The position numbers and the translations under genes are program-made. Below the pieces are notes generated by a model, which was given only the letters and a program-made list of their open reading frames with translations, ran no database searches and was not told where the DNA came from. From a bacterium (GTDB taxonomy: Bacteria; Patescibacteriota; Gracilibacteria; BD1-5; UBA6164), in assembly GCA_024635485.1 (NCBI GenBank), contig JAGXIV010000039.1, positions 1-34,403 on the forward strand: 34,403 nt of DNA. The letters run 5' to 3'. Shown in pieces: positions 2,168 through 15,247 of this stretch (positions are counted from its first letter, which is position 1; each line of letters opens with the position of its first letter).

Positions 2168-2194
2168 TTAGCACACATTATTAAAAAGTGCTAA
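2168..2194 (+). promoter_or_regulatory. CIRCE operator (HrcA binding site)
   Basis: TTAGCACAC-N9-AAGTGCTAA. The CIRCE consensus is TTAGCACTC-N9-GAGTGCTAA; here 16 of 18 arm positions match and the spacer is exactly 9. It lies just after the -10 box and about 100 nt before dnaK. hrcA itself is not in the window. Confidence 0.88.
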
Positions 2195-2291: not shown

Positions 2292-4184
<1,893 letters not shown>

Positions 4185-4190
4185 TCACTA

Positions 4191-4217
4191 AAAATCCCCA
4201 ATACTGGGGATTTTTTT
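4191..4217 (+). terminator. dnaK terminator
   Basis: AAAATCCCCA-atac-TGGGGATTTTTTT: a 9-10 bp stem with a seven-T tract, 7 nt after the dnaK stop. Confidence 0.92.
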
Positions 4218-6936: not shown

Positions 6937-8220
6937 TTATCGCGCCGCGGGAACTTTTTCTACTCGAAGGAACCTCCCAACCACTGGAGCAATTGCTGCT
7001 GCTCCAAAGCTAAAAAGTGCTCCCATTTTCGCTGCATCAAGAACATGACCTGCTGGAAAAGCAACACCAGCAACGAAGAGAGAAACGGTAAAACCGATTC
7101 CTGCCACAAAGCCGAGTGTAGCCACATCTTTCATCTTGACACCGTCAGGAAGTCCAAGAGTCCACGCAGCGATGCCTCCCATAATAAAGATTCCAAGAGG
7201 CTTCCCTATAAGAAGTCCACTCAGAACGAGCCATGTAGTGTCCCCCAGTGAAGAAAACTCGACTCCAGCATTCAGGAAGCCGAAGAGAAACAGAATAACC
7301 TGAACAGGAGCTTTGATTGTGTGCTCCATGACATTCAAGAGATCATGCTCATATTTCTCTTCCTCTGCAAAAATGCCAAAAGCTTTTGCTGCATGAGGGA
7401 TTACGGGAATCACAGGAAGAAGACCCAGTGCAGGATGGATTCCTGCCTGCTGAAATCCATACCAGCTAAGAATCCCCGCAATCACGTACGGTAAACCTCC
7501 CAAGTATTTGCGAACATTTGTCGAGTTTGGCCTTTGTTGCTTACCACGATCAAGTCGACGCGGAAGTTCATTGAACACGAACCAGACGAAAGAAACGGCT
7601 CCAAAAGAGAGAAGCAACCATTCAAGCTGAAGTTCTCCGGACGGATAAAACACAGCCAGAATAAGAAGCCCACCTGCGTCATCCAGAATTGCAAGAGCCA
7701 GGAGAAATTTGATTGCTGGATGTCCAGCTCCAAACACGAGACGGCCAACCAGATAGGCAAAGGCAATATCTGTCGCTGTAGGAATTGCCCATCCATTTTT
7801 CGCTGCTTCATAAGTATCAGAACCCATAATAGTAGCGATGATGAGATAGACTAAAACTGGTCCGAGCATTCCACCAGCCGTTGCGATAACTGTTGAAAGA
7901 GCTTGACGACCTCGGAGCGCTCCTCCAGGAATAGCAACTGCCTCCCAAACTTCTTTGCCAGCCATGGCAAAAAAGAGTGCCATGAGAACATCATTCACAA
8001 GATAATGGAGTGTAAGCTCTCGAACGATATGTCCATTCTCATCTTGATGAAGATGACCTACCAGAGAATCAGGAATCAGTACGATTTCCGTCAACATATG
8101 GTAGATATCAGGATTTGTATTTGCCATAAAGAGTGCAGAAATCGCACCCAATATAAGCAAAAGCGAATAATCTGAGACAAAGCCCCAGACCTTCGCAGTT
8201 GTGTTTGTGTTTGTAGACAT
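6937..8220 (-). CDS. nhaA: Na+/H+ antiporter NhaA
   Basis: An inner-membrane antiporter that expels Na+ in exchange for protons. The 427-residue, very hydrophobic protein has the unwound-helix motif WAIPTATDIAFA (equivalent to Asp133 of E. coli NhaA), the ion-binding pair in LALAILDDAGG (Asp163/164) and LLIGKPLGI (Lys300). About 46 glycines are present and none is UGA, unlike every neighbour of similar size. Base composition is also visibly richer in G+C (50% or more in sampled lines, against about a third nearby). The start MSTNTNTT is preceded by a strong AAGGGG ribosome site, which most genes here lack; the frame is open upstream but that part is not NhaA-like. Recent transfer from a standard-code donor is likely. 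Confidence 0.96.
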   Translation of the reverse strand: MSTNTNTTAKVWGFVSDYSLLLILGAISALFMANTNPDIYHMLTEIVLIPDSLVGHLHQDENGHIVRELTLHYLVNDVLMALFFAMAGKEVWEAVAIPGGALRGRQALSTVIATAGGMLGPVLVYLIIATIMGSDTYEAAKNGWAIPTATDIAFAYLVGRLVFGAGHPAIKFLLALAILDDAGGLLILAVFYPSGELQLEWLLLSFGAVSFVWFVFNELPRRLDRGKQQRPNSTNVRKYLGGLPYVIAGILSWYGFQQAGIHPALGLLPVIPVIPHAAKAFGIFAEEEKYEHDLLNVMEHTIKAPVQVILFLFGFLNAGVEFSSLGDTTWLVLSGLLIGKPLGIFIMGGIAAWTLGLPDGVKMKDVATLGFVAGIGFTVSLFVAGVAFPAGHVLDAAKMGALFSFGAAAIAPVVGRFLRVEKVPAAR

Positions 8221-8261
8221 ACATATTACCCCTTCAAGGTCAAATTGAAAAATGTCGAACA

Positions 8262-8291
8262 GTATTATTGATTTTTTTAATAAATTGTCAA
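8262..8291 (-). promoter_or_regulatory. Probable nhaA promoter
   Basis: Minus strand: TTGACA (8291-8286), 18-bp spacer, TAATAC (8267-8262). Unlike the gene, it is AT-rich like the host. Confidence 0.45.
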
Positions 8292-8310
8292 AAAATATTT
8301 GAGCTTCATT

Positions 8311-8337
8311 TTGAGCATAAAAAAAAGTCCGTATACT
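8311..8337 (+). promoter_or_regulatory. Possible promoter of the flavoprotein gene
   Basis: TTGAGC, 15-bp spacer, TATACT, 22 nt before the ATG at 8360. The spacer is short. Confidence 0.35.
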
Positions 8338-8359
8338 TGTTGAAATTAACAAAAAAGCA

Positions 8360-11954: not shown

Positions 11955-15247
<3,293 letters not shown>

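Follow-up and report, generated by a model that had tools for sequence, protein, structure and literature searches.

A CIRCE operator just upstream of the inferred dnaK promoter, and a probable HrcA regulon of dnaK and htpG, in a Gracilibacteria genome

A palindrome at positions 2168-2194 (+ strand) of the stretch of DNA analyzed here (34,403 nucleotides; hereafter the window) is very probably a site to which HrcA, the heat-shock repressor, binds, and we hold with good confidence that it serves as an operator from which HrcA would repress a monocistronic dnaK gene from just upstream of the -35 box of its promoter. As read from the genomes compared, dnaK is very probably under genuine HrcA-CIRCE control, a switch of a familiar type that has been rewired in these very small bacteria. 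The element itself is ordinary and had been correctly recognized in the original prediction; it is the setting that is unusual.

The operator and its conservation before dnaK

The palindrome, TTAGCACACATTATTAAAAAGTGCTAA, agrees with the classical CIRCE, TTAGCACTC-N9-GAGTGCTAA, at 16 of 18 positions with exact spacing, confirming the earlier call of a correctly spaced CIRCE on this strand, and its two mismatches of 18 lie within the limit of two applied in PMC4245973. The core TTAGCAC-N13-GTGCTAA is exact and is accompanied by an A5 tract toward dnaK; the TC/GA pairs on the inner side of the classical arms are missing. When up to three mismatches are allowed over the 18 positions, the site is the sole match both in the window and in the genome (1.137 Mb, 93% complete). 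Chance origin of the repeat was ruled out by dinucleotide shuffling, the mean over 100 shuffles being ~0.01 such matches in the window.

The operator lies 98 nt before a chaperone gene, dnaK (2292-4184, + strand; PF00012, E 1.8e-245), and so within its regulatory region. The genome reads TGA as glycine, and the 630-aa dnaK frame is open only when so translated, with six such codons, the second codon among them. The gene looks monocistronic, since a terminator-like stem-loop (4190-4215, + strand; consensus scan only) stands behind it and is followed by a convergent gene; the neighbors on either side are convergent or unrelated. Elsewhere in the window, an NhaA-type Na+/H+ antiporter gene (6937-8352, - strand; 471-aa frame; PF06965, E 4e-59) has no in-frame TGA, neighboring genes using TGA for glycine freely, and is perhaps a recent horizontal acquisition. 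A leucyl-tRNA synthetase of 1061 aa (11955-15140, - strand) carries at residues 779-876, beside or inside its anticodon-binding region, a stretch resembling Ham1, a nucleotide-cleaning pyrophosphatase family (PF01725, 35.7 bits against a cut-off of 22.5).

The site is a constant companion of dnaK in the family. The search for dnaK gave a match in 44 of 48 genomes (four have none at E 1e-100, and G043 has the 3' part only), and all 43 loci holding the 5' side, which were fetched by dnaK and not by CIRCE, carry the core with two or fewer mismatches. Across these 43 loci 11 of the 14 core positions are invariant, with variation at positions 1 (8 loci) and 3 (5 loci), and the A tract before the dnaK-side arm is likewise kept (A at positions 16-19 in 40 to 42 loci and at position 20 in 34). 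In the wider order a CIRCE-like match occurs in 68 of 77 genomes, some of them by chance, as on G045:C2 and G037:C9, where no chaperone gene adjoins (positions are from the matches listed, with G056-G076 left out). Nine genomes have no such match; of the seven looked at by the core definition (all but G004 and G018), six have a dnaK site and G043 an htpG site.

The repressor and its regulon

The expectation that an hrcA gene would be found elsewhere in the genome held: it lies on another contig than dnaK (C3:38698-39396, - strand). The earlier proposal that HrcA control persists in this reduced lineage is very probably right. The first 84 residues of the encoded protein align with the Thermotoga HrcA winged helix-turn-helix (1stz residues 13-95, E 2e-13), the N-terminal domain being the only part aligned in a sequence search of the PDB; the Pfam model for this domain, PF03444, reached 12 of 21 bits, below its cut-off. 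PF01628 covers the C-terminal part with a score of 52.2 bits (cut-off 22.2; profile positions 104-212 of 215). At 232 aa the protein is short compared with the ~330-340 aa usual for HrcA (solved and Firmicutes proteins), full length not being required by the Pfam model, and when it is aligned with two HrcA proteins from Firmicutes (331 and 329 aa) the gap falls in the C-terminal half. A structural model of a relative's protein, of moderate confidence (mean pLDDT 72.6, pTM 0.53), is best matched by 1stz (Z 15.1, rmsd 10.8, 209 residues aligned; Foldseek E 3.5e-11). Because model residues 3-226 span chain residues 14-319, about 97 residues of 1stz would have no counterpart here, a domain mapping that depends on the moderate model. 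The missing stretch is presumably the inserted, dimerizing domain of 1stz.

The nearest named relatives of this HrcA are Candidatus Gracilibacteria, and 32 of 35 loci with related proteins carry the label Gracilibacteria, Patescibacteria or unplaced bacteria, with long matches; of the other three, two come from Firmicutes (L217, L218) and one is a Gracilibacteria fragment (L219). In the order 70 of 77 genomes have HrcA; the other seven have CIRCE-like sites and no HrcA match, most of them being incomplete (G052 is 94% complete). Closely behind hrcA (L002 993-1451, - strand) is a 152-aa protein with nine TGA-coded glycines.

A search of the whole genome with the 14-position core, two mismatches being allowed, finds two places, before dnaK and before htpG (reversed control, one). 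The second, divergent CIRCE (C12:39952-39978; one core mismatch) stands 29 nt before htpG (PF00183, E 6e-85) and directly after a TTGACC-N16-TACAAT promoter, so that here the site follows the -10. It departs from the classical 18-position pattern at five positions; the idea of a single CIRCE in the genome was thus rejected, as that pattern misses the drifted htpG site. The regulon would therefore comprise at least dnaK and htpG, and the earlier statement that only dnaK follows CIRCE is not supported, htpG having an operator of its own in the same genome. The htpG site is again a family trait, present with two or fewer core mismatches at 29 of 30 loci fetched by htpG itself, and at 28 of these 29 a box reading TTGAC or TTTAC starts either 26 or 29 nt ahead of the site; with five loci found through CIRCE included the count is 34 of 35, and it leaves out G049, G058, G065, G070 and G076, which have an htpG match.

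The remaining chaperone genes lie dispersed over several contigs: C29 carries groES and groEL, C32 grpE, and C36 and C33 one dnaJ gene each. In the loci examined for groESL, grpE, dnaJ and hrcA no core with fewer than four mismatches occurs; the hrcA, groES, grpE and both dnaJ loci gave only single weak four-mismatch matches, none judged an operator. In the family as a whole, no CIRCE site that could be resolved precedes groESL. Between groES and groEL of this genome lies a short frame, glutaredoxin-like by eye (L004 1055-1432, + strand). Elsewhere in the order, a search by CIRCE itself turned up further sites before groES-groEL (families f2 and f3), clpB-like Clp ATPase genes and one dnaJ. 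In genus g33 a putative small zinc-ribbon protein of ~113 aa, with weak Pfam matches under the cut-off, is encoded directly behind a CIRCE-like site (L030, L032, L033) and is a possible new member of an HrcA regulon.

Across Patescibacteria an HrcA match occurs in 301 of 379 genomes, the open frames being mostly near 240-260 aa among the matches listed, and the exact CIRCE core in 139 of 379, with a reversed-pattern control of zero, except in G276, among the rows listed. Behind the exact core at 30 phylum loci stand hrcA-grpE-dnaK (12), groES-groEL (6), hrcA with no dnaK in range (4), grpE only (1) or no gene of the panel (7). Since hrcA-grpE-dnaK follows the same core in the phylum, the Gracilibacteria pattern is best read as a broken-up ancestral hrcA operon in which CIRCE would have stayed with dnaK. 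In other Patescibacteria TTGAC or its complement GTCAA often falls in the CIRCE spacer (e.g., G216:C22:37731 and G111:C18:10242), so that the operator there may extend over the -35 box.

The place of the operator and how it may act

The dnaK promoter of the window is placed at 2202-2229, because TTGAC is conserved downstream of CIRCE in all 57 dnaK loci compared, 43 from the same family and 14 from a third family (f3) that were found through CIRCE and so inform promoter placement and not CIRCE frequency. The inferred -35 hexamer TTGACG (2202-2207, + strand) lies 7 nt after CIRCE, and the inferred -10 hexamer TAGAAT (2224-2229, + strand) follows a 16-nt spacer; together they agree with the consensus at 10 of 12 positions. 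TTGAC starts 6 nt (19 loci) or 7 nt (38 loci) after CIRCE, within these limits at 43 of 43 loci of the same family, and is followed at a spacing of 15-17 nt, mostly 16, by a -10-like hexamer with four to six matches; in the 60-mers upstream of CIRCE at the 57 loci (3420 positions) TTGAC does not occur. Transcription of dnaK would start at about 2234-2236, which would put CIRCE at about -67 to -41, just upstream of the -35.

A predicted hairpin just past this start, AGTCG (2237-2241) pairing across 7 nt with CGACT (2249-2253; whole element 2237-2253, + strand), has counterparts in the family. Perfect stems of 5 bp or longer occur just after the -10 in 20 of 43 leaders, the other 23 having none by the same test; over 300 rounds of dinucleotide shuffling the mean count was 0.67 and the maximum 4, and a search 20 nt further downstream found a stem in none of 38 leaders. 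The stem sequences differ while pairing is kept (AGTCG, GTCGC, GTCAT, GTTAG and AAGTGA with their complements). The pattern suggests a 5'-terminal mRNA hairpin and thus lends independent support to the dnaK start.

CIRCE usually lies at or after the transcription start (for example PMC7464140). That classical arrangement, with the operator overlapping or following the start, does not describe dnaK as its start is inferred from sequence, the conserved promoter lying 3' of CIRCE at every one of the 57 loci; CIRCE is thus probably not at the dnaK transcription start, where the original prediction had put it. Relative to the promoter the place of the operator appears to differ between genes and to be fixed by gene: at clpB and several groE loci, judged by eye, the -10 (TATAAT) falls inside the CIRCE spacer and a TTGAC box precedes the site.

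From this arrangement we infer a steric mode of repression. The short HrcA, a winged helix-turn-helix with a GAF-like core, would bind 2168-2194 and cover the upstream contacts of RNA polymerase and the -35 box; the HrcA footprint reported for Campylobacter is 30-40 bp (PMC7464140), and one of that size at -67 to -41 would reach the -35. Upon heat or misfolding HrcA would lose activity and dnaK and htpG would be expressed, whereupon the chaperones would restore HrcA activity in a feedback loop.

The earlier placement of the start most likely came from TGATATAAT (2152-2160), a perfect extended -10 peculiar to this genome that ends 7 nt before CIRCE, and probably from its TATAAT (2155-2160, + strand), which is not conserved. 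If this were the promoter, CIRCE would lie at the start and be transcribed, as in Bacillus subtilis. We consider this improbable and rejected the upstream TATAAT as the main dnaK promoter: the exact hexamer occurs within 30 nt upstream of CIRCE in only 4 of 57 loci, its distance differing from one to the next (0, 2, 7 and 14 nt), no TTGAC stands in the upstream 60-mers, a terminator-like stem can be made out there by eye in several relatives, and every locus sampled has the downstream promoter.

A second promoter of the classical arrangement is nevertheless possible in this genome, given TGATATAAT. Both promoter-like elements being present in the window, HrcA might block the upstream one while the downstream one fired constitutively, CIRCE then only modulating dnaK. 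This is unlikely, if somewhat less so than the upstream promoter by itself; the upstream element is not conserved even within the genus, and just 7 bp separate CIRCE from the downstream -35, too few for an HrcA footprint of 30-40 bp (again PMC7464140) to leave that box free. That the palindrome is read by some other regulator, or is a relic, we regard as very improbable: the arms have indeed drifted from the classical sequence, and seven of the 77 genomes of the order do lack an HrcA match, but the near-invariant core at the 43 dnaK loci, its recurrence before htpG, clpB and groES-groEL in the order and its presence before hrcA operons in the phylum argue against it. Repression by HrcA from just upstream of the -35 is the preferred reading.

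In Bacillus the transcribed CIRCE stabilises mRNA. A wider and more speculative scheme, which we consider rather unlikely, is that a trimmed Gracilibacteria HrcA without the inserted domain runs a regulon of dnaK and htpG from which groESL is excluded; that it represses dnaK from the fixed site upstream of the -35 and htpG from directly after the -10; that stress is sensed via DnaK and HtpG and not GroEL, with HrcA dimerizing by other contacts; and that the 5'-terminal hairpin replaces the mRNA-stabilising role of a transcribed CIRCE.

Relation to known systems and significance

CIRCE before a lone dnaK has a precedent in mycoplasmas. The HrcA/CIRCE regulon of Mycoplasma gallisepticum likewise combines a reduced genome, scattered chaperone genes and a CIRCE before a dnaK outside the hrcA operon; here, however, the regulon would comprise dnaK and htpG, and the arms are more divergent. 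Other Patescibacteria share the core and the short HrcA frames, but their canonical CIRCE-hrcA-grpE-dnaK and CIRCE-groESL units have full 9-bp arms and operons with hrcA, whereas in the present genome the operon is broken up and hrcA and groESL have no operator. Thermotoga maritima HrcA (1stz) resembles the present protein in its winged helix-turn-helix and, by the model, in a whole-chain structural match; it differs in length (338 aa versus 232 aa), with some 97 residues apparently absent here. In delta-proteobacteria (PMC545781), CIRCE and hrcA occur as they do here and groESL is the only constant member of HrcA regulons, unlike the groESL of this genome, which is without CIRCE. The novelty lies in an operator at a fixed place upstream of the -35, in a further one before htpG, in arms that have drifted and in an HrcA of reduced length. 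Searches of a PMC library for HrcA found no paper with Gracilibacteria or the candidate phyla radiation and, with Patescibacteria, a single one, on oral microbiota and drug addiction.

Little is known of how Patescibacteria, whose genomes are tiny and whose regulators are few, answer stress. In this case a single repressor can be traced together with its operator across the phylum, from a canonical CIRCE-hrcA operon to scattered genes with drifted operators in Gracilibacteria. The gene-fixed operator positions, upstream of the -35 at dnaK and after the -10 at htpG, offer ready-made tests of how a repressor acts according to its place, and the short HrcA raises the question of which part of the protein serves dimerization and which heat sensing.
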